In this document: one piece after another, positions 3,191 to 19,200 of the stretch
Position numbering within the stretch: position 1 is the first letter of the stretch
How the letters are laid out: the number at the start of each line of letters is the position of its first letter
Virus record (IMG/VR): IMGVR_UViG_3300027870_000014
Span: 1 to 25,805 of that record
DNA length: 25,805 nt
From: a virus
Reading direction: 5' to 3' (one strand)
The notes under the pieces: generated by a model
Database searches by the model: none
What the model was told of the DNA's origin: nothing
Seen by the model: the letters and a program-made list of their open reading frames with translations, nothing else
Made by a program: the position numbers and the translations under genes

Positions 3191-3826
3191 ATGGCTGACG
3201 CCATCTTAGCCGACCTCGAATCGTCTGGCATATATCAGATACGCAATCTGGTGAGCGGTAAGCGGTACATCGGAAGCGCGAAATCTTTTCGGAAGCGTTT
3301 CTATCTGCATAAGTGGCACCTTCGCAAGGGCATTCATAAGAATGCGCGATTGCAGAATGCATGGGATAAATTCGGGGCTGAATCTTTCAGCTTCGAAATT
3401 GTTGAGATGTGCTGTTGCGCCGACCTTATAGCCCGAGAGCAGCATTTCATCGACACCGTTAATCCCGAGTACAACTTAGCGCCGCGCGCCGGAAACACCG
3501 CCGGAGTCGTCATGAGCGACTCGGCGAAGAAGCTCATTTCAATTGCAAATACGGGCAATAAATATTGCCTGGGCAGGGAAGTGTCGCCCTCTACGCGAGA
3601 AAAAATAGCATCAGCAAATCGCGGTAGATTGGCGGGAAGAAAGCAATCCGACGAGCATATAAGCCGAAGGATTGCGCACCGAATCGGAAGAAAATTGAGC
3701 GACGAGACTAAGGCAAAAATTTCAGCTTCACGTACTGGCCAAAAGTTAGATAAGCCACGCAGCGCGGAATATCGAGCAAAGATTTCTGAGTCACATCGAA
3801 GAAGGCGCGAATCCAATGAGCGGTGA
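3191..3826 (+). CDS. GIY-YIG homing endonuclease with NUMOD3 repeats
   Basis: A 211-residue free-standing homing endonuclease. The catalytic domain has GIYQIRN at residues 13-19, KRYIG at 24-28, basic RKR near 34-36, His40, and the metal-binding glutamate in AREQHFID (Glu83) with Asn95 in the closing NPEYNLAPR. Residues about 108-205 carry several NUMOD3-like DNA-binding repeats (SPSTREKIASANRG, SDETKAKISASRTG, SAEYRAKISESHR). Such genes cut a related phage genome lacking them and are copied in by repair. The gene is visibly more A/T-rich than its neighbours, a sign of recent arrival. It sits between the CxxC gene and the protease and overlaps the protease start by 11 bases. No intron boundaries were seen. 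Confidence 0.93.
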   Translation: MADAILADLESSGIYQIRNLVSGKRYIGSAKSFRKRFYLHKWHLRKGIHKNARLQNAWDKFGAESFSFEIVEMCCCADLIAREQHFIDTVNPEYNLAPRAGNTAGVVMSDSAKKLISIANTGNKYCLGREVSPSTREKIASANRGRLAGRKQSDEHISRRIAHRIGRKLSDETKAKISASRTGQKLDKPRSAEYRAKISESHRRRRESNER

Positions 3827-6022: not shown

Positions 6023-6319
6023 ATGCAAGTCACGCCCGTAAAGAAGAAGTTCGGAAAACACGTTCCAGGCGACGTGTTCGAGTTGCGAGACAAGACCGCC
6101 AAGATTCTCATCGCTGTCGGCAAACTGGCTCCGGCAGGATATTTGACGCGCGATATGCGCGCGGAGCGACCGCAGGCGCCCGCCGTGATCGTCGATGCTC
6201 CGCAGGTTGCGGTTGTCTCCGATCCTGTCGTCGATGAATCCGCCGAGGAAGCGCCATACGGATACAAGGCGGACGGCACGCCGCGCAAGCGCCCCGGTCG
6301 GCCGGCATCGGAATCCTGA
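6023..6319 (+). CDS. Small hypothetical protein between capsid and portal
   Basis: A 98-residue protein with a good ribosome site (GAGGTGA at 6013-6019). The N-terminal half (KKKFGKHVPGDVFELRDKTAKILIAVGKLAPA) looks like a small compact domain of the kind often seen directly after phage capsid genes. The middle is Ala/Val/Pro-rich. The C-terminus has a basic DGTPRKRPGRPAS tail that resembles an AT-hook (GRP core with basic flanks). Function is unknown: a minor head component or DNA-contacting protein is possible. It ends two bases before the portal start. Confidence 0.75.
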   Translation: MQVTPVKKKFGKHVPGDVFELRDKTAKILIAVGKLAPAGYLTRDMRAERPQAPAVIVDAPQVAVVSDPVVDESAEEAPYGYKADGTPRKRPGRPASES

Positions 6320-6320
6320 A

Positions 6321-7721
6321 ATGCGCCTTCTTGGTCTGGATATCAAACGCGCGGCCAGCGGCATGGCGACCGTGCCTGCGCGCGGATGGTCCCGGATTCT
6401 CGAATCATTCACGGGCGCATGGCAACAGAATGTTGAGGTCAAGCAGTGCGATCTGGTTTCGTACCCGACGCTATATGCGTGCATTCAGCGCATTGCATCG
6501 GATATCGGCAAATTGCCGTTCTGCCTGAAGCGGAAGAACAACAGCGGCATTTGGCAAGAGGAGGATAATCCCGCCTATTCCCCCGTGCTCCGCAAGCCGA
6601 ATGGATACCAGACTACGCAGCAGTTTCTTGAGCTTTGGCTGGTATCGAAGCTGACGCAGGGCAATACCTATGTCCTCAAGGTGCGCGACAACCGCGGCGT
6701 TGTGGTCGCGATGTATGTACTCGACCCGTGCCGCGTGCAGCCGATGGTCACGGAATCCGGCGCCGTCTACTACCAGCTGATGACGGATAGGCTCAATAAG
6801 CTGCCCGAGGGCCTGCCGCAGGATAGATTGCTTGTTCCGGCGTCGGAGATCATCCACGACCGTTGCATTACCTTCCACCATCCGCTGATTGGCGTGCCGC
6901 CTTTGTGCGCAGCCTATTGGCCGGCGGTGAAGAACCTAAAGATCCTGCAGAGTTCGACGCAATTCTTCGGAAACAGTTCGCAGCCTGGCGGCATCCTGTC
7001 AGCGCCGGCTGGAATGGACGACGAGGATGCGCAGCGGATCAAGGAATACTGGGACGCGAATTACAGCGGCACCAACGCCGGCAAGGTCGCAGTTATCGGC
7101 GCCGATATGAAGTTCACCAGCTTCGCCATGAAGGGCGCCGATTCTCAGCTTGTCGAGCAGATGCGCTACTCGGATGAGCAGATTTGCCAGCCCTTTGGCG
7201 TCCCGCCATTCAAGATCGGCATTGGCACGATCCCGGCCGGACTGGGCATCGATGCGATCAACCTGATGTATTTCGACGATGCGCTTTCGTGCCACGTCGA
7301 GGCGATCGAGAACCTTCTCGACCAGGCGCTCGCGCTGTCCAATGATCTCGGCATCTGGCTCGACACGGAGCCGCTTTTGCGCATGGACGTTGGCAAGCAG
7401 GCAGACGTGGAATCGAAGCTGGTGGGCGGAAAGATCAAGACGCCGGACGAGGCGCGCAAGCGGTTCAACCTCGGCGCTACTGGCGGCGGCGATACGCTTT
7501 GGGGCCAGCAGCAGGACTACCCGCTCGGCATGCTGGCCGATCGTGCGGAATGGGATCCGAATATGCAGCAGCCGGCGCAATCGGCTCCGGTCGCGCCCGA
7601 TCCTACGGCCGATCCGAGCGCGGACCCAAGCGCCAATGCGGCAGAAGAGATGCGGCAACTTAAAGCCGAACTGTGGGCGCGCAAGGCGCTAGACGCGATA
7701 CGAGAGGCCGTCAATGCTTGA
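6321..7721 (+). CDS. Portal protein (HK97 family)
   Basis: A 466-residue portal subunit. It forms the ring at the single capsid vertex through which terminase pumps DNA and to which connectors bind. Family features include the N-terminal VKQCDLVSYPTLYACIQRIASDIGKLPF stretch, the wing segment with PNGYQTTQQFLELWL, the HHPLIGVPPLCAAYWP region and the stem/crown segment EQICQPFGVPPFKIGIG. The tail holds a short DP-rich repeat (DPTADPSADPSA), then a helix. The ATG at 6321 lies directly after the previous stop and gives a family-like N-terminus. An in-frame ATG at 6195 would overlap the upstream gene by over 120 bases and is rejected. The gene lies after the capsid gene rather than before the protease, which differs from the HK97 order. 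Confidence 0.95.
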   Translation: MRLLGLDIKRAASGMATVPARGWSRILESFTGAWQQNVEVKQCDLVSYPTLYACIQRIASDIGKLPFCLKRKNNSGIWQEEDNPAYSPVLRKPNGYQTTQQFLELWLVSKLTQGNTYVLKVRDNRGVVVAMYVLDPCRVQPMVTESGAVYYQLMTDRLNKLPEGLPQDRLLVPASEIIHDRCITFHHPLIGVPPLCAAYWPAVKNLKILQSSTQFFGNSSQPGGILSAPAGMDDEDAQRIKEYWDANYSGTNAGKVAVIGADMKFTSFAMKGADSQLVEQMRYSDEQICQPFGVPPFKIGIGTIPAGLGIDAINLMYFDDALSCHVEAIENLLDQALALSNDLGIWLDTEPLLRMDVGKQADVESKLVGGKIKTPDEARKRFNLGATGGGDTLWGQQQDYPLGMLADRAEWDPNMQQPAQSAPVAPDPTADPSADPSANAAEEMRQLKAELWARKALDAIREAVNA

Positions 7722-8604
7722 CGCAACAGAGTTTGGCAAGGCGATGGCCGCGATCGTTCGCGACGCTACGACGCCGCTGCAGAAGCGCATCGAGGAGCTT
7801 GAGGCGCGGCAATTGCAGCGCGGCGAGAAGGGCGATCCTGGTATCGCTGGTGAGCGAGGCGAGGCTGGCGAGCCGGGTATTGCCGGTCCACAGGGTGAGC
7901 CGGGGCCGCAAGGGCCGCAGGGCGCTCCCGGCAAGGACGCTGATCCGATCGATCTTGCCGATGTTGCGCGCGAGCTGGCATCGCTGCCGGAAATCAAAAC
8001 AGTGCTTGACCTGTTGACGGCCGAAGCGGTCGCGAAGCACTTCCAGGCAAACCCGGTGCGCGATGGCAGGGATGGCGCGCCTGGCGCGAATGGCAAGGAC
8101 GGCGCAGCCGGTCCGCAAGGCGAGCGCGGCCTCGACGGCGCGGTCGGCAAGGACGGAGCCGGTATCGCTGATCTGCTAATAGACCGAGACGGCCATCTCG
8201 TGGCGACCATGACGGATGGCCGCACGAAGAACCTTGGCCCAGTGATCGGCAAGGATGGTGCGCCAGGCAAGGACGGCGCAGACTTCACCGACTGCGAGAT
8301 CGAATACGACGGGGAACGTACGATCACGGTACGCGGTAAGGGCGGCGAGATCGTCAAGCATGTTCCAATCCCGATCGACCGCGGCTACTGGTCGGAAGGC
8401 AAGTCTGCAGAGCGGGCCGATATCCTGACGCACAACGGCTGCGCATGGATCGCGTTGCGAGCAACGAAGGCAACACCTTGCCATGAGAACAAGGATGACT
8501 GGCGCCTGATGGTCCGCAAGGGCCGCGACGGCGTTGACGGTCGCAATGGGCGAGACCTTGGCCCGGCTCCGCCCGTGAAGCTCAACGGAGCCGGCGATGC
8601 TTGA
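7714..8604 (+). CDS. Collagen-like virion protein, possible head fibre
   Basis: A 296-residue protein with four blocks of collagen Gly-X-Y triplets at about residues 37-75, 118-148, 179-189 and 270-281. Residues 5-36 form a likely coiled coil that could start trimerisation. Residues about 190-265 form a globular segment containing YWSEGKSAERADILTHNG and CAWIALRATK, a pattern common in phage fibre-like proteins. It overlaps the portal gene by 8 bases (ribosome site GAGAGG just upstream) and the connector gene by 8 bases, so it is made with head-neck proteins. A head or neck fibre that contacts the host surface is the best inference. Collagen-like stretches are often glycosylated in other systems, of interest given the sugar-transfer genes downstream. 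No signal peptide. Confidence 0.85.
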   Translation: MLDATEFGKAMAAIVRDATTPLQKRIEELEARQLQRGEKGDPGIAGERGEAGEPGIAGPQGEPGPQGPQGAPGKDADPIDLADVARELASLPEIKTVLDLLTAEAVAKHFQANPVRDGRDGAPGANGKDGAAGPQGERGLDGAVGKDGAGIADLLIDRDGHLVATMTDGRTKNLGPVIGKDGAPGKDGADFTDCEIEYDGERTITVRGKGGEIVKHVPIPIDRGYWSEGKSAERADILTHNGCAWIALRATKATPCHENKDDWRLMVRKGRDGVDGRNGRDLGPAPPVKLNGAGDA

Positions 8605-8989
8605 ACTCGTCACGCACGACGAAGCCGTTGCGCATCTCCGTCTAGACGAGTCCGCGGACGATGCGTGGCTTTCGGTCTTCATCCCGGCGATCTCGGAAGC
8701 CGTCGCTGGCTGGCTGAAGGACGAATGGCGGCTCTATGTGCCGGAGATGGACGGCGGCGAGGTCGTTGTCGATTCCTCTGGCGATCCTGTGCCGGCAGTC
8801 GATTCAAACGGCTACACCGTGCGCCCCGTCGTCAAGGCCGCGGTGCTGTTGGAGCTTAGCAGCGTCTACCGCTATCGCGAGGGCGAAGGGAAAGACAACG
8901 TGGTTTCGGATGCTGCCGGCCATGGGTATTCGCTCAACAAGGCCTCAACCGCCATACTGGCATCGCTGCGTAAATCGACTCTCGCATGA
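8597..8989 (+). CDS. Head-tail connector (HK97 gp6-like)
   Basis: A 130-residue protein of the gp6-like connector type, which forms a ring under the portal. Visible family features are the opening THDEAVAHLRLDESADDAWLSVFIPAISEAVAGWL, a short loop, then RPVVKAAVLLELSSVYRYREGEG, where the helical stretch before the arginine-rich YRYRE is typical. It overlaps the collagen-like gene by 8 bases and the next connector by 4, consistent with coupled synthesis at matched ratios. Similar proteins are called Phage_connect_1 or DNA packaging protein in other phages. Confidence 0.85.
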   Translation: MLELVTHDEAVAHLRLDESADDAWLSVFIPAISEAVAGWLKDEWRLYVPEMDGGEVVVDSSGDPVPAVDSNGYTVRPVVKAAVLLELSSVYRYREGEGKDNVVSDAAGHGYSLNKASTAILASLRKSTLA

Positions 8990-9324
8990 GCAACGTAGCC
9001 GCCGGCCGCCTCCGTCACCGCATCCGCATTGATGAGCAGGTTACGCTGAAGAATTCATCCGGCGAGCAGACGGTCGAATGGGAAGAAGTCGCGACGGTAT
9101 GGGCGGCAATCGAACCGCTTAGCGCTCGCGAATCGATGATCGCCGAGCAGACGCAATCGAAGGTAAGCGCGCGGATCATCATCCGTTCAAGGAACGACAT
9201 TCGCGCCAGCATGCGCGCCGTTCATGGGACGACGATCTACAACATCGAAGGCGTGATCCGCGATCCGGATAGCGGGCAGGAGTGGATTACGTTGACCGTG
9301 ACGACTGGAGTCAATGAAGGCTAG
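8986..9324 (+). CDS. Head-tail joining / head closure protein
   Basis: A 112-residue member of the phage head-tail joining family (SPP1 gp16 / HK97 gp7-like), which binds under the connector ring and forms the tail-docking surface. Recognisable are GRLRHRIRIDEQV, then EEVATVWAAIEPLSARE with the W-A-x-I-E-P-L hallmark, and a C-terminal half with IIRSRNDIRASMRAVHGTTIYNIEGVI. A 4-base overlap links it to the connector gene. An 11-base overlap links it to the first gene of the sugar/methyl cassette, which separates it from the next structural gene by about 4.6 kb. Confidence 0.9.
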   Translation: MSNVAAGRLRHRIRIDEQVTLKNSSGEQTVEWEEVATVWAAIEPLSARESMIAEQTQSKVSARIIIRSRNDIRASMRAVHGTTIYNIEGVIRDPDSGQEWITLTVTTGVNEG

Positions 9325-10027
9325 GGCGTTCCTAAATCTTCGCTACACCGTCCCCGAACGGCGCGCAGTGTTCACGGAAGGGTTGCAGCAGATCGGATTC
9401 GAAGTAGTGCATGGCCTGACGCGCGAGCCGCGCGAAGGCGATGTGCTCGTGACGTGGAACCGCATCCACGAAGGCGATGCCTGCGCGCGCGAGTTCGAGC
9501 GGCGCGGCAATGCGGTCCTAGTGACCGAGAACGCAACGTGGGGAAACGGCTTCGCCGGCGAACCCTGGTACACCCTGGCACGGAGCTATCATAACCTCAG
9601 TGGCACATTCCCGATTGGCGGTGACGAGCGGTGGGACTCTCTGGGCGTCGAGCTGGCGCCATGGCGGACGAGAGGCGAGACAGTCATTCTGCCCAGCCGA
9701 GGCATCGGCCCGCCTGCCCATCGGATGCCTCGCGATTGGACATCGCGGCAGGTTGGACGAGTCCGGTCGCATCCTGGTACGGGGCCGGCGAAACGGCTCG
9801 AAGAAGACCTCGCCGAGTGCGGCCGGGTGGTTACGTGGGGTTCTGGCGCGGCAGTCAAGGCGCTAATGCTCGGCATTCCGGTCGAATCGCACATGCCGGG
9901 ATGGATCGCGGCTCAAGACAACACTGATGCCGGGCGACTGGCAATGTTCCGGCGGCTAGCGCATGCGCAGTGGCGCCTTTCAGAACTCAGGACGGGTGAG
10001 CCATTCGCACGATTGCTTGCGAGGTAG
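9314..10027 (+). CDS. Putative GT-B-like glycosyltransferase, copy 1
   Basis: A 237-residue protein. The most telling segment is GRVVTWGSGAAVKALMLGIPVESH near residues 168-191, the pattern of a nucleotide-sugar-binding half in GT-B or capsule-type glycosyltransferases (conserved Ser/Ala-rich turn, then GIPV). RSHPGTGPAKRLEEDL just before it resembles their RPHPG-type loop. It ends with WRLSELRTGEPFARLL. The next gene shares both the GIPV region and this C-terminal signature, so the two are paralogues. The start ATG at 9314 lies inside the head-closure gene. No membrane segment or signal peptide. Donor and acceptor sugars cannot be told. Family assignment is pattern-based and moderate. Confidence 0.6.
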   Translation: MKARAFLNLRYTVPERRAVFTEGLQQIGFEVVHGLTREPREGDVLVTWNRIHEGDACAREFERRGNAVLVTENATWGNGFAGEPWYTLARSYHNLSGTFPIGGDERWDSLGVELAPWRTRGETVILPSRGIGPPAHRMPRDWTSRQVGRVRSHPGTGPAKRLEEDLAECGRVVTWGSGAAVKALMLGIPVESHMPGWIAAQDNTDAGRLAMFRRLAHAQWRLSELRTGEPFARLLAR

Positions 10028-10028
10028 C

Positions 10029-10826
10029 GTGAATCTCAGGGTCGCATGTCTGACCCATCCGGGACAGAAGCGCTATCGGCTTGTGGCTGAGGCAATGGCG
10101 GTCGGGATCGGTCGCTGCGGCGATACGCCTTACATGCATCCATTGAGCGGACCGATGATGCAGGCGGACGTTGCAGTCTGCTACGGGTGGAAACGCCGCG
10201 CGCAATACATCGGCTATCCGCGGTTCGTCTATGCGGACCTCGGATACTGGCACCGAGACACGCATTACCGCCTCGTAGCCGGAGGATGGAGTCCGGAAGG
10301 GTACGTTATGGCCGGACTTCCATCGGAACGTCTCGCGAAGCTGGGCGTCGATGTGAAGCCGTGGAAGCAAGGCGGCGATACGATCATCATTGCTGGATCG
10401 ACTGGCAAGTCCTGCGTAGAGCATGGGCTGGCCTATCGGTCATGGGAGATTCGCGCGGCTGAACGCCTGCGAGATTGCGGTAAGCGCATCGTCTACAGGC
10501 CGAAGCCGACGGACCCATGTAAGGCGCCGCTTCCTGGCGTCGAATATGACCAAGCGCCGATCGAGGAATCATTGGCGCGAGCCTGCGCACTGGTAACGCA
10601 TCATTCCAATGCTGCAGTTCAGGCACTTGCGGCTGGCATTCCCGTCCATTGCGAGGTCGGCGCCGCTGCGGCCTTCAGCGTGCCGATGTCGGAAATCGCA
10701 CAAGCGCCGCGACTGGATGGCAGGGATCAGTTCCTTGCCGACGTCGCTTGGCTGAATTGGTCGTTGGATGAGATGCGCTCTGGCGAGGCTTGGGCGCACA
10801 TGAAGGAGCGAGGATTGCTGTGCTGA
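10029..10826 (+). CDS. Putative GT-B-like glycosyltransferase, copy 2
   Basis: A 265-residue protein (GTG start at 10029, one base after the previous stop, with GAGG just upstream) paralogous to the preceding gene. Shared features are the segment ALVTHHSNAAVQALAAGIPVH near residues 206-226 and the C-terminal LNWSLDEMRSGEAWAHM, matching WRLSELRTGEPFARL in copy 1. It also keeps RIVYRPKPTDP near 166-176, a basic loop typical of sugar-nucleotide phosphate binding, and an N-terminal Rossmann-like half (NLRVACLTHPGQKRYRLVAEAM). An ATG at 9963 would overlap copy 1 and is less likely. Probably soluble and cytoplasmic. Glycosyltransferase role is inferred from pattern and neighbours. Confidence 0.6.
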   Translation: MNLRVACLTHPGQKRYRLVAEAMAVGIGRCGDTPYMHPLSGPMMQADVAVCYGWKRRAQYIGYPRFVYADLGYWHRDTHYRLVAGGWSPEGYVMAGLPSERLAKLGVDVKPWKQGGDTIIIAGSTGKSCVEHGLAYRSWEIRAAERLRDCGKRIVYRPKPTDPCKAPLPGVEYDQAPIEESLARACALVTHHSNAAVQALAAGIPVHCEVGAAAAFSVPMSEIAQAPRLDGRDQFLADVAWLNWSLDEMRSGEAWAHMKERGLLC

Positions 10827-11518
10827 CATTCGACGCGGTGACGACTTTCGCGGAATCGCATTGGGAATCCCATGCGAAGCGATGCGTCGAGACTTTCCGG
10901 CAATTCTGGAGTGGCATCCCGCTGCGGACATTTACGGACGCGCAGCTTGAACTTGGGTCCGATTGGCTGCCGGAGTTCAAACAGCGCCATCGGCACCGCC
11001 CAACGCACAACTACCGCTTCGATGCTGTCCGGTTCGCGCACAAGGTAGCCGCCATCGAGATGGCATTCCGGGCAGGAAGCGCAGACGTACTGATTTGGAT
11101 CGATGCCGACTGCGTGACGCATGCGCCGGTAGACGCGGAATGGCTTTCAAGCCTGCTAGGAGATGCCGACCTTGGCTATCTCCGGCGCTCGACGAAGTAT
11201 CCGGAATGCGGATTTGTGATGTTCCGCCGATCGCAGGAAGGCGCCGAGCTGATTAAGGCAATGGTCCGCCTGTACCAGACCGATCGCCTGTTCGATCTGC
11301 CGGAGTGGCACGACTGCATGGCACTGGATCATGCCCGGCAGACGCTGGGCACGCGCTGGACGTCGCTTTCTGGAGATGCCGAGTCAACCGGGCATCCATT
11401 GGTCAATGGGCCGCTGGGCGCTCGCCTGGATCACTTGAAGGGCAAGCGCAAGGCGGCCGGAAAGTCGCTCAAGTCGGATTTGAAGAAATCGCGCAGCGAG
11501 GCCTATTGGAATGGGTAA
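10820..11518 (+). CDS. Putative GT-A glycosyltransferase (DxD)
   Basis: A 232-residue protein with a classic GT-A metal-binding DxD: ADVLIWIDADCVTHAPV around residues 88-104, with Asp95 and Asp97. Upstream RFAHKVAAIEMAF (71-83) matches the donor-binding helix often seen before DxD. Downstream GFVMFRRSQEGAELI and EWHDCMALDHAR complete a GT8/GT34-like layout. The C-terminus is lysine-rich and may contact nucleic acid, lipid or partner protein. The GTG at 10820 is chosen because GAGG lies six to seven bases upstream and it overlaps the previous stop by 7 bases. The ATG at 10790 is an alternative. A retaining hexosyltransferase is a guess. Confidence 0.75.
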   Translation: MLTFDAVTTFAESHWESHAKRCVETFRQFWSGIPLRTFTDAQLELGSDWLPEFKQRHRHRPTHNYRFDAVRFAHKVAAIEMAFRAGSADVLIWIDADCVTHAPVDAEWLSSLLGDADLGYLRRSTKYPECGFVMFRRSQEGAELIKAMVRLYQTDRLFDLPEWHDCMALDHARQTLGTRWTSLSGDAESTGHPLVNGPLGARLDHLKGKRKAAGKSLKSDLKKSRSEAYWNG

Positions 11519-12179
11519 GGGGCTGACCGCATCCATGCAGCTAGTCAAGGGCTTGGCGATGCCGGCCTTCGACGAGTTCATGGTCAAGATCGTGCCGGAT
11601 GATGGCCGATACCAGCACGAGAACCTGATGGCGGCGGCTTCGCATTGCAGGCAGCGCCGTACGGTCATCGATGGCGGCGCGCATGTGGGCATGTGGTCGC
11701 GAACGTTCGCCGGCCTGTTCGATCGCGTGATCGCTTTCGAGCCGTCACCCGATACCTTCGAATGCCTGCTCTACAACATCGACGCGCCGAACGTGGATTG
11801 CAGGAATCAGGCGCTTGGCGCCGCTCCCGGCAAGATCCACATGACCCTCGCCGGGTTCGAAGGGACGCAGCGCGAAAAGAACTCCGGCGCTCGCTATGTC
11901 GCGGACGGCGGCAACATTGACCGCGTGACGGTCGACTCGCTCGATCTGGACGACCTGGATCTGCTGAAAATGGACATTGAGGGCAGCGAGGTCGAGGCAT
12001 TGAAGGGCGCGCGCGAAACACTCCTGCGCTGCCGGCCCGTGGTCCTGTTTGAAGGAAAGAACGAATGGATCCGCCGCGGGTTCAAGGAAGATGCGCCGCA
12101 GCGCTTCCTGTCATCGCTCGGCGCTGAAAAGTTCGAGCGCGTCGGGATCGATGAAATTTGGGGCTGGCCCAATGGCTAA
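11511..12179 (+). CDS. FkbM-family methyltransferase
   Basis: A 222-residue SAM-dependent methyltransferase of the FkbM (Methyltransf_21) family, which commonly O-methylates sugars and polyketides. Motif I is VIDGGAHVG at residues 52-60, motif II-like VIAFEPSPDTFECLLYNI at 73-90, and the family hallmark VDSLDLDDLDLLKMDIEGSEVEALKGA spans about 141-167. The segment CRPVVLFEGKN follows. Identification is firm. It overlaps the GT-A gene by 8 bases and the next methyltransferase by 8 bases. In this company the most likely substrate is a sugar added by the neighbouring transferases. Confidence 0.93.
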   Translation: MGKGLTASMQLVKGLAMPAFDEFMVKIVPDDGRYQHENLMAAASHCRQRRTVIDGGAHVGMWSRTFAGLFDRVIAFEPSPDTFECLLYNIDAPNVDCRNQALGAAPGKIHMTLAGFEGTQREKNSGARYVADGGNIDRVTVDSLDLDDLDLLKMDIEGSEVEALKGARETLLRCRPVVLFEGKNEWIRRGFKEDAPQRFLSSLGAEKFERVGIDEIWGWPNG

Positions 12180-12759
12180 GCGATATGCGCAGATGCTTCC
12201 GATCATCGCCGAGCTGAAGCCGTCCGTGATCGTCGAGGTCGGCGTACACAAAGGACTGCGCGGATCTGCGCTTAGCCTGGAAGCCCTGAAACATTCGGCC
12301 AATGTCCGCTACGTCGGTTATGACGTGTTCGAGACGATGGGCGAGGAGTTCCAGCGCGAGGCCTTGAATGGCAAGAGCACGCCATCTGAGGCGCGCGCTC
12401 GGCAGGCTTTCGATCCAATCGTCGGCCAGCATCCCGGGTTTGCCTACGCCTTCCACGTGGGCGACACGCGCAAGACTCTGCACGGGCGGTCACTGGACGC
12501 AGACTTCGCGTTCATCGATGGCGACCATCGCGTTGAGGCGATCCGCGGCGACTATATGGCACTCAAAGATGCCAAGGTTGTCGTGTTGGATGACTTCTAC
12601 ATGCCTGGGCCTTCCGGATCACTACCGGACCTATTGCTCTACGGCGCGAATTCACTGGTCGATGAGCTTCGAGCAGATGGGCGCGAGGTGGAAATTCTTC
12701 CGATTGGCGACCTATGCAATCACGGCGCAGTGGCGCATCTGGCGGTAGTTCGCCAATGA
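12172..12759 (+). CDS. Class I SAM methyltransferase (Methyltransf_24-like)
   Basis: A 195-residue protein with a Rossmann-type SAM site: VIVEVGVHKGLRG at residues 19-31 as motif I, RYVGYDVFETM at 46-56 with the acidic residue after strand 2, and DFAFIDGDHRVEAIRGDY at 111-128, where the IDGDH is typical of Methyltransf_24 and TylF-like sugar O-methyltransferases. VVVLDDFYMPG (136-146) adds possible metal-binding aspartates. The start at 12172 overlaps the FkbM gene by 8 bases. An in-frame ATG at 12049 lies far inside that gene and is rejected. Two different methyltransferases side by side suggest two positions of methylation on one glycan, which is inference. Confidence 0.85.
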   Translation: MAKRYAQMLPIIAELKPSVIVEVGVHKGLRGSALSLEALKHSANVRYVGYDVFETMGEEFQREALNGKSTPSEARARQAFDPIVGQHPGFAYAFHVGDTRKTLHGRSLDADFAFIDGDHRVEAIRGDYMALKDAKVVVLDDFYMPGPSGSLPDLLLYGANSLVDELRADGREVEILPIGDLCNHGAVAHLAVVRQ

Positions 12760-13394
12760 TAGACCTGTTCGCTGGATGGGACGCGCGCGAGGAGGCCGGG
12801 TTCCATGTGTTCTGCCGCAGCGTGCTTTCGCGGGCATCAGTTCCGGTCCGGATTACTCCGGTTGGCGCATTCGGTGGACCGCAGGGGACGAACGAGTTCA
12901 CCTATTCGCGGTTCATGGTCCCGGCGATGATGGACTATCGCGGTCATGCGATCTTCATGGATGGAAGCGACATGCTTGCGCAGGACGACATTGCGAAGCT
13001 CGACGAACTGTTCGATGCGGCCTTCGCAGTGCAGGTCGTGAAACACCCGAACTACAAGACGCGGCACAAGGTCAAGTATATCGGAACGGCGATGGAGTGC
13101 CCGAATACGAACTATGCCCGGAAGAACTGGGCCTCGGTCATGCTGATCAATTGCGAGCATGAGGCATGGCGGTCTGTTCCAGAAGGATTGGACGCGCTGC
13201 AATTGCGATTCATTCCTGATGAGCTGATCGGCGAGCTTCCTGCGACATGGAATTGTCTTGTGGATGAGGGGCATGCGCCAGGCTCGGTGCTTCACTGGAC
13301 GGCCGGCATCCCCGCTTTCAAGCACTACACGAACGCTACGCAATCCGACGTATGGCACGCCGAGTGCGCAGCGATGATGCAGGCAGCGGCATGA
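12756..13394 (+). CDS. Putative GT-A (GT8-like) glycosyltransferase
   Basis: A 212-residue protein with a DxxD metal site in HAIFMDGSDMLAQDDI around residues 64-79 (Asp69, Asp72). It is preceded by SRFMVPAMMDY (51-61), in the place where GT8-type enzymes carry the donor-binding helix. The later VMLINCEHEAWRSV and VLHWTAGIPAFKHY resemble the acceptor-side motifs of GT-A enzymes, where LHWxGxPKPW-like patterns are common. It starts with ATGA overlapping the methyltransferase stop. Not homologous by eye to the other GT-A gene of the cassette beyond the DxD region. Predicted soluble. Confidence 0.72.
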   Translation: MIDLFAGWDAREEAGFHVFCRSVLSRASVPVRITPVGAFGGPQGTNEFTYSRFMVPAMMDYRGHAIFMDGSDMLAQDDIAKLDELFDAAFAVQVVKHPNYKTRHKVKYIGTAMECPNTNYARKNWASVMLINCEHEAWRSVPEGLDALQLRFIPDELIGELPATWNCLVDEGHAPGSVLHWTAGIPAFKHYTNATQSDVWHAECAAMMQAAA

Positions 13395-13894
13395 AGGTCG
13401 CGGTACTCGCCACCGGACCGAGCATGTCTCAGGCCGTGGCGGATCGTGCGCGCGCAGAATGCGATGCCGTGGTGGCGGTCAACAAAGCAATGGAGCTGGC
13501 GCCTTGGGCCGACGCTCTGGCGGCGAATGACCACGCATGGTGGCGTGCCAATCCGGAAGCCAAGACGTTCGCCGGCCGCAAGTTCAGTGCGAACAAGATC
13601 GAAGGCGTGGAACAGGTCGTGTCGGATCTAGTGACGCGCCAATCCAGCTCAGGTGTTCTCGGGCTTCATGTGGCGCAACTACTCGGCGCAACCGAGGTCG
13701 AGCTACACGGTTTCGAGAACCGAGGCGATCACTACTTCGGCAAGTACCCGGAACCGCTTCGCAACACATCGCCGTCGCGTTATAGCGCATTCGAGGACCA
13801 GCTTAGCGCGCTTGGCGCCTCGATGAAGAAGGCTGGAATCCGCATCATAAACAGGACGCCGGACTCGGCGCTAAGGTGCTTCGACCGTGGCTGA
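13391..13894 (+). CDS. DUF115/MptE-like protein
   Basis: A 167-residue Rossmann-like protein. The opening MKVAVLATGPSMSQAVADRAR carries the GxGPS-like nucleotide loop. AVVAVNKAMELAPWADALAANDHAWW follows, and SSSGVLGLHVAQLLGATEVELHGFE near residues 86-109 is the hallmark of the DUF115 group (MAF flagellin-glycosylation factors, MptE-type 6-hydroxymethylpterin pyrophosphokinases). In bacteria such proteins are tied to flagellin glycosylation with nonulosonic acids, while archaeal MptE acts in pterin synthesis. Here sugar transfer or sugar handling is more likely from context. It overlaps its neighbours by 4 and 8 bases. The protein is shorter than full MAF enzymes, so it may be only the nucleotide-binding core. 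Confidence 0.65.
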   Translation: MKVAVLATGPSMSQAVADRARAECDAVVAVNKAMELAPWADALAANDHAWWRANPEAKTFAGRKFSANKIEGVEQVVSDLVTRQSSSGVLGLHVAQLLGATEVELHGFENRGDHYFGKYPEPLRNTSPSRYSAFEDQLSALGASMKKAGIRIINRTPDSALRCFDRG

Positions 13895-14378
13895 CCTTGT
13901 TCGGGTGGATGGCCTGCGAGAGCTTCAGGCGAAGCTCACGTCGCTCGGTATCGAGTACGGCACCAAGGCCGCCTACAACCCTGTCCGCAATGCGCTAAAC
14001 AAGGCCGCCCGCGTCATCCGCGATTCGGCGAAGCAGAAGGTGCGCCGCAAGACGGGCACTCTGGCGGACAACATCATCGTTACGTCGAAGGGAAAGCCAG
14101 ACCCTAATGGACTGATTAGCTCCAAGGTGGTCGTGCGATCGAAGGCGAAGGCCTACAAGGACAACCCTCGCAACCGCAGGACCGGCAAGGTTGGCGGAAG
14201 CTACAAGAACTACGGCCCGCTGTTCTATGCGCGCTTTCTTGAATTCGGGACTAGCAGGATGCAGCCCTACCCATTCCTCCGCCCGGCATTCGAAGAAAAC
14301 AAGATGGCGCTACCGCAGATGATCAAGAACGAATTGGCTGACGCGATTGAGCGCAGCGTGGCGAAGCTAGGCCGATGA
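13887..14378 (+). CDS. HK97 gp10-like tail completion protein
   Basis: A 163-residue protein of the HK97-gp10-like family. Features are the opening VDGLRELQAKLTSLG, a basic helix (NALNKAARVIRDSAKQKV), RKTGTLADNIIV, and the C-terminal LEFGTSRMQPYPFLRPAFEE, where the E-F-G-T-S...P-Y-P-F-L-R-P-A pattern is diagnostic. It sits at the top of the tail where tail and head join. The start is GTG at 13887, 8 bases inside the cassette's last gene. In most relatives it directly follows the head-closure gene. Here it is displaced by the cassette. Confidence 0.92.
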   Translation: MADLVRVDGLRELQAKLTSLGIEYGTKAAYNPVRNALNKAARVIRDSAKQKVRRKTGTLADNIIVTSKGKPDPNGLISSKVVVRSKAKAYKDNPRNRRTGKVGGSYKNYGPLFYARFLEFGTSRMQPYPFLRPAFEENKMALPQMIKNELADAIERSVAKLGR

Positions 14379-14737
14379 CCGTTCAACTTCCGCGGGTTCA
14401 GAATGCGCTGGAAGGATCGACCGCGCTCACGACGATCGTTGCTGACCGAATCAGCATGGGCATCGCGCCGGAGGATCAGACGCGGCCCTATGTCGTCTGG
14501 TGGATCGTTTCTGCCGTGCCGGAGAACCTGCTGGGCGAGCGACCGCTGGAAGACGACCAGCGCGTCCAGGTGGATTGCTGGGCCATGAGTCAGCCGCAGT
14601 GCCGGCAGATGATGCAGGCCGCGAACGATGCCTGCGAGGCGATCGGTCATGTGGTGCTCGGGCCGTCGTACGAGTATGAGGCAGAGTCCAAATTGCATAG
14701 ATGGTCTTTCGACCTCGAGGTGCGGAACACGAGATGA
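14375..14737 (+). CDS. Tail completion / terminator protein (DUF3168-like)
   Basis: A 120-residue protein fitting the DUF3168 tail terminator group, which caps the tail tube and sets the head-proximal end. Family-like features are VQNALEGSTALTTIVADRI near the N-terminus, RPYVVWWIVS, RVQVDCWAMSQPQCRQMMQAANDAC and the closing HRWSFDLEVRNT. It overlaps the gp10-like gene by ATGA. It is the last gene of the coupled chain that started at the portal-collagen junction. A terminator and the tail-tube leader follow. Confidence 0.85.
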   Translation: MTVQLPRVQNALEGSTALTTIVADRISMGIAPEDQTRPYVVWWIVSAVPENLLGERPLEDDQRVQVDCWAMSQPQCRQMMQAANDACEAIGHVVLGPSYEYEAESKLHRWSFDLEVRNTR

Positions 14738-14778
14738 CGAGCACGCATCCGGGTGAAATCGGTTGCGCTGTTCGATCG

Positions 14779-14805
14779 GGAAGGAAAGCGCGCGTAATTC
14801 CTTCC
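14779..14805 (+). other. Purine/pyrimidine hairpin in intergenic stretch
   Basis: GGAAGGAA (14779-14786) is perfectly complementary to TTCCTTCC (14798-14805) around an 11-base loop rich in CG steps. It lies in the 263-base gap between the tail terminator gene and the tail tube gene, 68 bases before the intrinsic terminator. No gene is supported in this gap. The GGAAGGAA arm looks like a ribosome site hidden in a stem, but no good reading frame follows it. Confidence 0.5.
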
Positions 14806-14872
14806 TTCGGTGTACTCGCAATTCAATAGCGGGAAGTCCGACGCAGGCCCGAGCGATACGGGCACTAATTCC

Positions 14873-14899
14873 AAGGCCAGCCATTGCGCTGGCCTTTTT
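14873..14899 (+). terminator. Intrinsic terminator before tail tube gene
   Basis: AAGGCCAGC (14873-14881) pairs perfectly with GCTGGCCTT (14888-14896) around a CATTGC loop, and the stem runs into a T-tract at 14895-14899. This is a textbook rho-independent terminator. It ends the head/connector transcript about 100 bases before the tail tube start, so either the tail genes have their own promoter in the short space after it, or read-through is partial. No clear promoter was found between 14900 and 14930. Confidence 0.85.
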
Positions 14900-14930
14900 C
14901 ATTTCCGGCGGAGCGCTCTGCCGGGAAAAC

Positions 14931-15008
14931 GACTGTCGTGATGACAGCCGGTTCGCAACGCCGCGAGGCGTGGCATCCCATCGATGGAGCAATAGCACAC
15001 GTGAAAAC
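14931..15008 (+). promoter_or_regulatory. Structured leader of tail tube mRNA (element copy 2)
   Basis: Hairpin A is CTGTC (14933-14937), loop GTGAT, GACAG (14943-14947), with the same GA/CC flanks as copy 1. Hairpin B is ACGCC (14958-14962), loop GCGA, GGCGT (14967-14971), followed at once by GGCATC (14972-14977). TCGCA precedes hairpin B exactly as in copy 1. A ribosome site, GGAG (14986-14989), and CACACGTGAA (14996-15005) follow, with the GTG start at 15001. Compared with the capsid leader, one pair of hairpin A and two pairs of hairpin B differ with both partners changed. An extra GC-rich hairpin lies at 14905-14924. Confidence 0.65.
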
Positions 15009-15462
15009 CCAAGGCACCGAACTCTGGTTCGTTTCCGATGCCAGCACGCCCGCGATCGTCAAGGTCGGTTGTCCGACCGGCGTGACCGGCCTCGGCGGCA
15101 GCCGCAATCAGATCGACGTCACCTGCCTGGACTCGGCGGAAATGCAGTATGAGCCCGGCATGGCGAATCCCTCAACCGTTTCCGTTCCGATCAACTTCGA
15201 TCCGCAGAACGTCTCGCACGAAGAACTGCTTGACATGTTCGACAACGGCACGATCGTGCATTGGATCCTCGGCTTCAGCGACGACACCGCGCCGCCGACG
15301 GTCGATGGTTCCGGCACCGTTACCTACCCGTCGACGCGCAGCTATATCGACTGGTACGGCTACCTCGCCGACTTCCCGTTCGATGCCGCTCTCAACTCGG
15401 TCTACAAGACGAACATGACGATCCAGCGCAGCGGCGCGCGCGGCTTCCACAAGAAGACCTGA
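15001..15462 (+). CDS. Major tail tube protein
   Basis: A 153-residue protein placed and sized as a siphovirus tail tube subunit. It is beta-rich with the family-like opening GTELWFVSDASTPAIVKVGCPTGVTGLGG, then RNQIDVTCLDSAEMQYEPGMANP, where an I-D-V-T-C/S-LDS pattern is common in tail tube proteins. PVSIxFDPQN-like and IVHWILGFSDD segments follow. The GTG at 15001 has a ribosome site 11 bases upstream and sits in the same leader element as the capsid start. An upstream in-frame ATG at 14884 would place the reading frame across the terminator and leader hairpins and is rejected. Both capsid and this gene begin with GTG-AAR-AC. Confidence 0.88.
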   Translation: MKTQGTELWFVSDASTPAIVKVGCPTGVTGLGGSRNQIDVTCLDSAEMQYEPGMANPSTVSVPINFDPQNVSHEELLDMFDNGTIVHWILGFSDDTAPPTVDGSGTVTYPSTRSYIDWYGYLADFPFDAALNSVYKTNMTIQRSGARGFHKKT

Positions 15463-15469
15463 TCCGCCT

Positions 15470-15550
15470 AACGGCATCCCCGTTCCAACCTTGCAGCCGG
15501 CGTCGCCGGTCAACTGCGTCCCTTGCCGTGCGCAGGGCGTCGTCGGCTGC
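15470..15550 (+). other. Structured spacer before tail chaperone gene
   Basis: AACGG (15470-15474) pairs with CCGTT (15480-15484). A larger fold follows, with GCAGCCG (15493-15499) pairing perfectly with CGGCTGC (15544-15550) and inner hairpins, one of which (CCGGC-GTC-GCCGG at 15497-15509) competes with the outer stem. The 115-base spacer holds no gene. The structure may limit transcription or translation after the tail tube gene. It does not share the conserved sequence blocks of the two leader elements. Confidence 0.4.
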
Positions 15551-15577
15551 ATCTATCTCAACGGCAGGAGTAATTCA

Positions 15578-15904
15578 ATGTTGGACCTCAGCGATTTCAT
15601 TGACACCGCCCCTACGCAGCGGGAAATCACCTACAAGGGCAAGAAGAAGACCTTCTACTTCCGCGAACTCGGCGCGGACGAGGCGGAAACCCTGTTCCTC
15701 GGCGTCGATTCCGACCCGAAGAAGAACAAGGGTCTTCGAAACAAGATCATCGCGCAGATCGTCGTCACTGAATCCGGCGAAAAGGCCTTCAAGGTCGAGG
15801 ATGCCGGCAAGCTTCCGAACGAACTCGCGAACGCCCTGAATGCGGTTGCGCTGGAAGTAAACGGCGTCGGCAACAAGGCGGCCGAAGAAGCAAAAAACGA
15901 CTGA
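15578..15904 (+). CDS. Tail assembly chaperone, short form (gpG-like)
   Basis: A 108-residue protein between the tail tube and tape-measure genes, the fixed place of lambda gpG-type tail assembly chaperones, which coat the tape measure while the tail tube grows. It opens LDLSDFIDTAPTQREITYKGKKKTFYFRELGADEAE, a pattern seen in this group, and ends in an Ala/Glu-rich tail. The ATG at 15578 has GGAG nine bases upstream. An in-frame ATG at 15491 would run the protein through the structured spacer and is rejected. The last codons contain an in-frame slippery heptamer, so a longer form is also made. Confidence 0.85.
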   Translation: MLDLSDFIDTAPTQREITYKGKKKTFYFRELGADEAETLFLGVDSDPKKNKGLRNKIIAQIVVTESGEKAFKVEDAGKLPNELANALNAVALEVNGVGNKAAEEAKND

Positions 15905-16185
15905 CGGATTCGCAATCCTTCTGGTGGTCCCTGTTCATCCGGACAGGGATTCCACCGCGGATCGCCAAGCGAATCCTGACGCATCGGGAATACCTGGAGC
16001 TTCGACTCTGGGCGAAAAGCAACCCGATAGATGACCAGTCAAATCACCACATTCCGATTGCGTCCCTGCAGTCGTCGATGGTGAACATGATGGGCAACAA
16101 ATCGAAGGTCACAGACTTCCTGATTTTCAATCAGGACAGGACGGACGATATCGAGGCCTTGCTCAAAGACGAGTTCGACGAATAG
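15578..16185 (+). CDS. Tail assembly chaperone, -1 frameshift form (gpGT-like)
   Basis: If ribosomes slip back one base at AAAAAAC (15892-15898), reading continues past the 15904 stop for 95 more residues to TAG at 16183-16185, giving about 202 residues. The extension, joined at 15898, has no start codon of its own near its beginning. It has protein-like content: SFWWSLFIRTGIPPRIAKRI, then THREYLELRLWAKSNP, an E-Y-L-E-L/W helix much like T-domains of other tail chaperones, and an acidic C-terminus. The T part normally binds the tape measure and the G part recruits tail tube subunits. This fused product is easily missed by automatic gene callers. Confidence 0.85.
15892..15898 (+). promoter_or_regulatory. 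-1 ribosomal frameshift slippery site
   Basis: A AAA AAC in the zero frame (GCA AAA AAC) is a standard X XXY YYZ heptamer, two codons before the zero-frame stop. A strong stem-loop follows: GGTGG TCCCTGT (15923-15934) pairs with ACAGGGA TT CCACC (15943-15956), with a TT bulge. The 24-base distance is longer than the usual 5-9 bases for a stimulator, so its part in frameshifting is uncertain. The slippery site itself is in the expected phage gene and position. Confidence 0.85.
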
Positions 16186-16202
16186 GGGCGCTTCGGCGCC
16201 CC
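16185..16202 (+). terminator. Terminator-like UUCG hairpin before tape measure gene
   Basis: GGGGCGC (16185-16191) pairs perfectly with GCGCCCC (16196-16202) around a TTCG tetraloop. The following TTCGCATTT is only a weak T-tract, so full termination is doubtful. Its first base is the last base of the frameshift-product stop. It resembles the hairpin after the capsid gene (same GC stem and TTCG loop). It likely attenuates or protects the upstream mRNA end before the tape-measure gene. Confidence 0.5.
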
Positions 16203-16222
16203 TTCGCATTTCCGGGAAACCA

Positions 16223-19200
16223 ATGGCAGACCTTAGCTCCCTTGTAATCCGACTCAGTGCCGATGTCGCGTCGCTGCAGAGCGACATGGGTAAGGCTGTA
16301 GGCATTACGCAGCGCTCTGCCGATCAAATGGCGGGCGCCATTAATGGGATTAACTCCCTTGTAAAGGAGTTCGCCAAGGGATTAGCTGCGGCGTTCACCG
16401 TAGACAAGATTATAGGCGTTGCCAAGGCAGCCATTGACCTTGGCGACAGCCTCAACAAAATGTCGCAGAAGGTCGGCGTATCTGTCGAGTCTCTTTCTGC
16501 ACTGCGCAATGTCGGGCAGCTTGCCGATGCCAGTTTCGAGCAGCTGGGCGCTGGCATGGTCAAGCTGTCGCGCAACGCGGCAGAGGCGGCCGAGGGTGGC
16601 AAGCAACAGGCCGCCGCATTCGCCGCCATTGGTGTGGCGGTCAAGGACGCCAACGGGCAACTGCGCCCAACACAGGCGATCCTTGAAGACGTAGCCAAGA
16701 AGATGGCCGGATACGAGGACGGCGCATCCAAGACCGCCCTTGCAACGCAGCTATTCGGCAAGGCCGGCGCTGAACTCATCCCCGTACTGAACCAGCTTGG
16801 AGAGGGCGGATTCGCGAAGGCGGCCGCGGCTGCGCGCGATTACAACCAGGTTATCGGCCAAGAGCAGGCGGCGCAATCGGAAGCATTCAACGACAACCTG
16901 ACGCGCCTATCCATGGCCGCATCGGGGTTTGCGAATGCTGTCGTAAAGGATCTCCTGCCGGGCCTCGTGGCCTATTCGCACGACATGGCCGAGGCGGCGA
17001 AGACCAACGATGGCTATGCCTCTAGCGCATCCGGAGTTTCCACCGCCATCAAGAGCATCGTTCTCGCGCTGACGACGGTAAAGGAATTCCTGTCGGCAAG
17101 CGGAACGATCACGTTCGCCTTCTTCGATGCGGTAAAGACCACGTTCACCGCGTCAGCCGAGTACATCGGAACGTGGGCGGCTGGCGTTGCCAAGGAGATC
17201 AAGGCGGCATTCACCATTGGCGGCCCAAGCGTTGCTGACATCAAGGCAGAGACGGAAGGGCGGCTCGACGCTATTGCAGCAGGTGCTAGTAAGTCATTCA
17301 GGGGAATCAAGGATGCGCTCGGCGGCGGGCTGACCGAGAACGTCAGCAACGTCAGGAAGGCCTACAACGATCTTTTCGGTACGTTCTCCAACGTATCCGG
17401 CGCCGCGGACACGACCGCCGGTGCAATCCACAAGACGGTCGCGCCGTTGCTTGCTTCGGCTGATGCCGCCTCCAACGCCGCAAAGGCGCTCATGGAGCTG
17501 GCCGCGGCGCAGAAGGCCGCGATGGACATGCTGGACAGCCTGCGCGGCACCACGGACGCCAATGCCAAGGTACAGGCCGAATTCGACAAGGGCATGCGCG
17601 CCCTGCAGACGACCATGGAAGCATGGGCGATTGCTGGCGGCGACATCACCACGATCATTGCCGCATGGCAGGAAGGTGAAGACCTTCTGAAGGCCTCGCT
17701 GGAAAAGAAGAATGCGGCCCTCGCCAAGAGCGGCGACGTGCTCGGAAACTATCTGGACGAGCTCCGCCAGAGCACCGCGCTTTCAACAATGACGGAGCGC
17801 GAGAAGGCTATCGCGACGGCGATTGCCAAGGTTACGGACGAGTGGAACAAGAACACCGCAGCTGGAATCCGTAACAAGCAATCGCTGCAGGCCGTCGTTA
17901 GCGGAGCTTCTATCGCAGCCGGCGCGGCATTCGACCTTTCGAAGGCATTCGAGGACGCGCAAAGGGCGCTGGACCAATTCAATAGCCCAACTCCTTTCGA
18001 AAACCTGAACAAGGCGATCGAGGAAGTTGGCGAGCAATTGAAGAAGGCCACAGATCCGGAAGTCGTCAAAAGGCTCGGCGAGGAGCTTGACCGGCTCGAC
18101 ACCAAGAAGATCAGCATCCAGCTGGAGCGAGGCGCGCAGGCCGTATCCGCAGGTCTTACCAGCCTGCAGGGCCTAGCCAAGGAAGGAACGAAGGCCTACG
18201 CAGAAATGCAGGTGGCGATCGATGCTGCCAACATCGCTGCGGCCATCGGCGCCATCGTCAATCAAGGCATGGGCGACCCGTACACGGCGTTCGCGCGCAT
18301 CGCGGCAATGGCCGCGCTCATGGCGACGTTCGTACACGACGTTGGTAGCGCCGGATCCGCTGGATTTCATGATGTAGCTGCATCTCGGCAGGAATCGCAG
18401 GGAACCGGGACGGTTCTGGGCGATTCCAAAGCCAAGAGCGAGAGCATCGCCAAGGCGACGGAGATCACAGCAAACGCGACCACGCAGCTTGTCGGGCTGA
18501 ATCGCGGGATGCTGACGGCTCTGCAGTCCCTACAGCATGCGCTTGGGGCTGCGGGCGTGCAGCTTGCTCGCGGCGCTGGTGAAGTTCCGACGCCAACCCT
18601 GTCCGGAAACCAGACCGCACCCATCGGATCTCCGGTCGGCAATGCCATCATCGGCTTCTTGTTCGGCGGCAGTCAGAAGGTAGTCGATCAGGGCATCGTC
18701 ATTGCAGGCGGCGCGCTCAATGAAATGCTCAACAACATCGTCGTTGGCGCGTATCAGACGATCGAGACAAATGGCGGACTATTCGGCAGCAATAGCACCA
18801 AGGAGGCCGTAACTCCGGTTGCCGCAGAGTTCGCCAAGCAATTCCAGCTGGTCATCGGCTCGATCATCGATACCGTACGCGCTGGCGCCACGGCGCTTGG
18901 CCTGTTGCCAGCGGATATCGAAAAGGCAATCGCGGCCTACAAGGTCGAGGAAATCAAGATCAGTCTCAAGGGGCTGTCTGCGGAGGATCAGCAGAAGGCG
19001 CTTGAGGCGGTGTTCTCGTCGATCTTCGACGGCCTCGCCGGTGCAGTAGTGCCGTTCATCGGCCAGTTCCAGAAGGTCGGAGAAGGCCTGGGCGAGACCC
19101 TTGTCCGCGTCGCTACCGAAGTCCAGGTTACCCAAGAGGCGTTCAAGCAACTCGGCTTGGCCGTAGATACGACCGATCCGGAGAAGTTCGCGCAGATTGC

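Follow-up and report, generated by a model that had tools for sequence, protein, structure and literature searches.

The virus record IMGVR_UViG_3300027870_000014, analysed here at its full length of 25,805 bases (the window), covers the packaging, head, neck and tail genes of a siphovirus-type phage, in the order HNH, TerS, TerL, GIY-YIG homing endonuclease, protease, major capsid, portal, collagen-like fibre-type protein, Ad1, Hc1, seven cassette genes, gp10/Neck1, tail terminator, major tail, chaperone, tape measure and tail proteins. The seven cassette genes (G1-G7), with which this analysis is concerned, are plus-strand open reading frames (ORFs) at 9314-13894, between Hc1 and an HK97-gp10-like neck gene; four are predicted glycosyltransferases (G1, G2, G3 and G6), two are predicted methyltransferases (G4 and G5) and one resembles a sialyltransferase (G7) (Table 1). 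We consider late cytoplasmic glycosylation of virion proteins the best-supported reading of this cassette, and a probable one.

Table 1. Cassette genes (coordinates with refined starts) and associated features of the window, with G7 fusion ORFs of related contigs
Feature	Position	Strand	Evidence
Collagen-like fibre-type protein, 31 GXY triplets, candidate acceptor	7714..8604	+	PF01391 E 1.6e-12; triplet count
Hc1 head-closure, upstream flank	8986..9324	+	PF05521 E 4.7e-30; phrog_25
G1, GT-B-type, CMP-Kdo-transferase fold	9314..10027	+	AF2 model, structural matches, motif counts
G2, diverged G1 paralogue, GTG start	10029..10826	+	Self-hit, alignments
G3, GT-A glycosyltransferase, GTG start after AAGGAG	10820..11518	+	AF2 model, structural matches, alignment
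G4, FkbM-family methyltransferase	11511..12179	+	PF05050, TIGR01444
G5, Methyltransf_24-type methyltransferase, accessory	12172..12759	+	PF13578; L004 gene order
G6, probable GT-A/GT8-like glycosyltransferase	12756..13394	+	Profile match to WbbM; conserved acidic residues
G7, putative GT42/Cst-II-like enzyme	13391..13894	+	phrog_4603, Cst-II profile, named-phage homologues
HK97-gp10-like Neck1/tail-completion protein, downstream flank	13887..14378	+	PF04883 E 2.9e-10; phrog_5
Terminator-like hairpin after tail-terminator gene	14873..14896	+	Consensus match; sites no more than in shuffles
G7 fusion ORFs	L060:7686-9605, L146:8093-9988, L157:2116-4035
G7 fusion ORFs	L159:3487-5382, L184:4206-5930, L197:3058-4854

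A preliminary description of this DNA had placed seven ORFs on the plus strand here, joined by overlaps of 4-11 nt or a 1-nt gap, between a head-closure and a gp10-like gene that are normally neighbours. All seven are present, and recomputation gave the same junctions (from Hc1 to gp10, an overlap of 11 nt, a 1-nt gap, and overlaps of 7, 8, 8, 4, 4 and 8 nt). Because Hc1 and gp10 directly adjoin in 32 related loci (-40 to +3 nt; one at 116 nt), the cassette is regarded as an insertion at a recurrent site; the two genes are 0.5-7.2 kb apart in 67 related loci. Its base composition is like that of its surroundings and, judged by this, it was not acquired recently. Between the window and the sister contig L004, the ratio of nonsynonymous to synonymous substitution rates (dN/dS) is 0.06-0.12 for G1, G2, G3, G4, G6 and G7 and 0.11-0.17 for the flanking structural genes; these six cassette genes are under strong purifying selection. 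The cassette is not a product of chance, given these low ratios and the recurrence of its genes in order in dozens of contigs.

The preliminary description had recognised two paralogous GT-B-like proteins, which corresponds to our result: G1 and G2 share 38% local identity (E 2e-7) in a self-comparison of the window proteins, and the AlphaFold2 (AF2) model of G1, at a predicted local distance difference test score (pLDDT) of 92.3, is a confident GT-B-type fold. Its best 15 structural matches are all WbbB, KpsC or KrkA (Z 9.3-11.9; best values 11.9, 11.3 and 9.7, respectively), and the next unrelated match scores 6.8. WbbB (GT99), KpsC (GT107) and KrkA (GT140) are retaining transferases of 3-deoxy-D-manno-oct-2-ulosonic acid (Kdo), in which (K/R)xHP binds cytidine monophosphate (CMP) and the Asp of QxxxD is the catalytic nucleophile (PMC12887879, PMC10148158). 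G1 shares with them the overall fold and the (K/R)xHP motif (R151-x-H153-P154 in the window; R/K in 76/76 and HP in 76/76 G1 proteins), but it is shorter (237 aa), shows no sequence match to them, and has Gly132 for the QxxxD nucleophile. With the QxxxD site placed by eye in the loop that follows the first strand of the C-terminal domain, 60/76 proteins have Q128 (Ser in the window) and Gly at position 132 in 76/76. The missing nucleophilic Asp led us to reject G1 as a true beta-Kdo transferase of GT99, GT107 or GT140, although fold and motif are kept; since (R/K)xHP is invariant and the nucleophile position is always Gly, G1 resembles a CMP-sugar enzyme whose mechanism would differ from the known one of the Kdo transferases. 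G2 has RPKP where G1 has RxHP, and matches PF20471 ("putative glycosyltransferase") below the cut-off. None of G1, G2, G3 and G6 has a Pfam match above cut-off, and sequence searches of the Protein Data Bank with G1, G3 and G5 returned nothing useful, for G1 including no match to WbbB, KpsC or KrkA.

Two GT-A-type proteins with DxD/DxxD sites had also been claimed; the claim holds firmly for G3 and with probability for G6. The AF2 model of G3 (pLDDT 91.9) is that of a GT-A glycosyltransferase, with a DxD (D95-A96-D97) invariant in 13/13 aligned proteins. Its top structural match is the PBCV-1 capsid-glycosylation enzyme 2p72 (Z 15.6), followed by glycogenin (13.1); glycogenin and alpha-1,3-galactosyltransferase lie at Z 12-13. 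For both G1 and G3, fold similarity is to be distinguished from demonstrated function. G6 has a profile match to WbbM (E 7e-4), has invariant D69 and D72, and scores 12.1 bits against PF01501 (GT8; cut-off 24.3), a family that its homologue in contig L138 matches at 32.7 bits; it is a probable GT-A/GT8-like glycosyltransferase.

The FkbM methyltransferase and the Methyltransf_24-like enzyme of the preliminary description both have Pfam matches above the cut-offs: G4 matches PF05050 (E 2.1e-15, 57.7 bits, cut-off 22.7) and TIGR01444 (E 3.7e-24, 85.8 bits, cut-off 37.7), and G5 matches PF13578 (E 1.4e-6). G5 is considered accessory because L004 does not have it. The methylated oligosaccharide that the same description had named as the product accords with these two enzymes, from which it is itself predicted. 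A weak match of G5 to a PHROG named DNA methyltransferase, together with the known action of glycosyltransferases on phage DNA (PMC12619734), could suggest that the cassette glycosylates phage DNA bases, as in T-even or TET/JBP-type phages. We regard this as very improbable. A thymidylate synthase-type hydroxymethylase (PF00303) was found in 0/20 related records, where the control matched 9/14, in a test that covers the phage's own genome in part, the window being a 25.8-kb fragment; Tet_JBP was likewise found in 0/20, but its control matched nowhere. The oxygenase present in some cassettes is prolyl-hydroxylase-like, and the cassette sits among neck genes, not replication genes. DNA modification is unsupported by the gene content of the 20 related records.

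G7 is the most widespread cassette member. The gene is where the preliminary description had put a DUF115-like protein, but its match is to phrog_4603, "alpha-2,3-sialyltransferase" (E 3.6e-22), and the G7 family profile matches Cst-II entries with E 7e-5 over 126 positions; we therefore describe it as a putative GT42/Cst-II-like enzyme. The alignment stops at Cst-II residue 172, and the catalytic His of Cst-II is His188; G7 has an invariant His114. Homologues of G7 are D3 orf7, PAJU2 ORF010 and P1 PmgO, all within or beside morphogenetic genes. Of 76 loci that were retrieved otherwise than through G7, 42 carry G7 and G1, 11 carry G7 without G1, 23 carry neither gene and no locus carries G1 without G7, as counted with a clean G7 profile free of the L045 fusion described below. 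This nested occurrence, with G7 alone in some loci and G1 always accompanied by G7, suggests that G7 is the first enzyme to act.

A single ORF (574-639 aa) in each of six contigs joins the G7 domain to GXY repeats, a Gly-rich linker, a PKD domain and, in some of them, a LamG-like domain. In L045 (3898-5262), a G7 domain is fused to a domain that looks by eye like a family 9 (heptosyltransferase-like) glycosyltransferase, with no Pfam match. The collagen/PKD fusions, the occurrence of G7 without other cassette genes, and the label "structural protein" that PAJU2 ORF010 bears in AP009624 would all agree with G7 being itself part of the particle, as a module for binding or scaffolding at the neck, with the other enzymes decorating G7 or a partner and not a major virion protein. 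Most G7 proteins, however, are a bare enzyme-like domain of ~170 aa with conserved GPS, SG and His, and we judge this version improbable; it is compatible with virion glycosylation and does not exclude it.

The preliminary description had proposed a search for the same gene set in related phages, and this was carried out with a G7 scan (43 viral contigs), a G1 scan (154 relatives, 80 of them kept) and a portal scan (80 loci, not selected for the cassette). A related set recurs in dozens of contigs and on several head backbones. Family labels in the gene-order, flank and fibre counts come from hidden Markov models built for this analysis, in which the G7 label includes some GT9-like ORFs. The commonest order is Portal-fibre-Ad1-Hc1-[G7-G1-c13-G2-(c21)-c14-G6]-gp10, where c13 is weakly glycosyltransferase-like, c14 is a methyltransferase and c21 is a 2-oxoglutarate (2OG)-Fe(II) oxygenase; some contigs have extra GDP-mannose-dehydratase-like or GT-D-fold genes. 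A second backbone, Portal-protease-probable capsid-[cassette]-Hc1-gp10, is found in L163, L185, L186 and L208, and L198 is similar. The full cassette also occurs in prophage-like records, for instance L172 and L177. Glycosyltransferase genes lying within or beside virion genes are one feature expected of a phage virion glycosylation system, and among the 86 distinct G1 proteins virion genes stand on at least one side in 83 and on both sides in 45; nearly all of the one-sided loci reach a contig end. Among the remaining three, L137 adjoins TerS/TerL, whereas the L138 locus has a head-tail adaptor on one side and a head-morphogenesis gene on the other. L138 is binned as Candidatus Methanoperedens, but its GcrA-like gene (L138:11416-11940) suggests a misbinned alphaproteobacterial phage, and we infer no archaeal host. 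A literature search on neck-located sialyltransferase or FkbM in phages found no papers.

Across related loci, 292 of 331 intra-cassette junctions are overlaps or gaps of at most 20 nt. On the plus strand of 6100-16300 no sigma70-like site was seen, which is within shuffle expectation, and the hairpin of Table 1 is the sole terminator-like one. Late expression is predicted from the position of the genes.

The Cst-II, WbbM and WbbB/KpsC/KrkA relationships of G7, G6 and G1 bear on the main rival explanation, late modification of the host lipooligosaccharide/lipopolysaccharide (LOS/LPS) core, in which soluble glycosyltransferases would cap the core at the inner membrane and progeny would avoid debris and infected cells. 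Cst-II and WbbM are both surface-polysaccharide enzymes, and D3 orf12, at the same site, looks by eye like a family 9 (heptosyltransferase-type) enzyme with no Pfam match. An integrase is present in 11/20 related records, so many of these phages would be temperate. The preliminary description had taken the absence of a flippase or membrane protein as evidence against O-antigen conversion. No transmembrane-like stretch was found in the window cassette proteins, and GtrA (PF04138) was found in 0/20 related records (the control matched 7/14), which argues against Gtr-type O-antigen conversion, a candidate that we rejected; it gives no argument against soluble LOS-core enzymes, which need no flippase and which several of the folds resemble. 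Against core modification, the genes are translationally coupled to neck genes and form no separate conversion unit, several head backbones share their site, six contigs have G7 fused to surface-type domains, and late expression would leave little time for surface remodelling. We hold it to be unlikely.

If virion proteins are glycosylated, an acceptor is expected among them. The obvious candidate is the collagen-like fibre-type protein encoded two genes upstream of the cassette, which was absent from the preliminary description; no other virion protein stood out. It was rejected as a dedicated acceptor: the fibre gene is found in nearly every portal-scan locus, including 23 complete loci without a glycosyltransferase or methyltransferase gene, GXY repeats are missing from its PAJU2 counterpart, and on the second backbone the cassette occurs without the fibre. 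Collagen stalks (at least 8 triplets) are somewhat more frequent in cassette carriers (26/36 versus 10/23, p 0.03, one of three tests and uncorrected for relatedness). A prolyl-4-hydroxylase-like 2OG-Fe(II) oxygenase (PF13640) occurs in cassettes of L010 (6240-6836), L020 (10845-11432), L036, L039, L141, L144 and L170; it could hydroxylate the collagen-like fibre carried by the same phages. The association of the oxygenase with collagen is not significant (5/5 versus 21/31, p 0.29).

From the gene content we infer activities, donor, order of action, acceptor and benefit as follows. The cassette enzymes would be made late from the structural operon and would do their work in the cytoplasm, either ahead of particle assembly or while it proceeds. 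The first sugar is probably transferred to a virion protein by G7, with perhaps a CMP-activated acidic sugar from the host as donor; no CMP-sugar synthetase was found in the 20 related records, so a CMP donor would have to be host-supplied. G1, G2, G3 and G6 would then extend the chain, and G4 and G5 would O-methylate the glycan. The product would be carried by a head, neck or fibre protein of the virion and would change how the particle is recognised or how stable it is.

Virion decoration, proposed in the preliminary description, is still the best explanation and is favoured by the new evidence, which falls short of proof. The site recurs across head backbones next to virion genes; the G7 fusions to surface-type domains and the nearness of the G3 fold to a capsid-glycosylating enzyme also speak in its favour, as do the coupling to structural genes, the nested occurrence of G7 and G1, and the lack of DNA-hydroxymethylation or GtrA genes in the long related records. 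Several points weigh against it. Both the virion glycan and its acceptor are predicted; the fold and profile relatives Cst-II, WbbM and WbbB are surface-polysaccharide enzymes; the chemistry of G1, lacking the nucleophile of its structural relatives, is uncertain; the fibre gene is also found in cassette-free phages; the main text of a P1 virion study does not name PmgO (PMC9024508); and the loci are related, often fragments and sampled by pattern scans, so that their counts are descriptive and do not represent independent events.

We tentatively propose, at somewhat less than even chance, that the cassette represents a modular exchangeable pathway of tailed phages that infect Gram-negative bacteria, consisting of initiation by the GT42-like G7 (in some phages fused to a displayed collagen/PKD/LamG-type protein), CMP-sugar-type and GT-A extension, O-methylation and, in some, a prolyl-hydroxylase-like oxygenase, in a block that would move between head backbones and stay beside virion genes. 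Were virion glycosylation true, self-encoded glycosylation would be common among environmental phages and prophages, with about five glycosyltransferases and the methyltransferases working as an assembly line; many neck-region genes now called "hypothetical" (D3 orf7 and orf12-13, P1 pmgO) would gain a testable role, and the pathway would matter for the ways in which particles escape binding, neutralisation or damage. Parts of the cassette are present in the cultured phages CcrColossus, P1 and D3, which makes the question directly testable.

Elsewhere in the window, the tail assembly chaperone gene (15491-15904) has a slippery A_AAA_AAC near its end (15892-15898), and its -1 frame is open for ~95 codons. 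A lambda G/GT-type programmed frameshift is likely, because the -1 frame matches separate small ORFs in the relatives L004, L008, L010 and L019. The GIY-YIG homing endonuclease gene (3191-3826) lies between TerL and the head protease in a lower-GC patch (~0.52), and a tail protein with putative Ig (He_PIG) domains is encoded near the contig end (24165-25343).

In the literature found, proven virion glycosylation in tailed phages is limited to mycobacteriophages. According to Freeman 2023 as cited in PMC12363180, Che8, Corndog and Myrna glycosylate their capsid and tail-tube proteins with their own glycosyltransferases, the glycans are proposed to be an antibody shield, and key single glycosyltransferase genes are named (Che8 gp110, Corndog gp38). 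The window cassette, unlike these, comprises seven genes with methyltransferases and CMP-sugar-type folds in the neck module, and its glycan is predicted. The chlorovirus PBCV-1 encodes a glycosyltransferase set for its own major capsid protein (PMC11571054), and the G3 fold is nearest to its enzyme (2p72/2p73) at 11% identity; PBCV-1 is, however, a eukaryotic giant virus with another gene arrangement. D3 orf12-13 and PAJU2 ORF011-012 stand, like the cassette, between Hc1/adaptor and gp10, whereas no G1, G2, G3 or G6 homologue was found in D3, PAJU2 or P1, unlike in the window. In the giant Caulobacter phages CcrColossus (gp126-131) and CcrBL9, a related block contains G7, G1, G2 and G6 homologues, a methyltransferase and a further glycosyltransferase; it follows the tail-fibre genes, whereas the window cassette is placed in the neck module.

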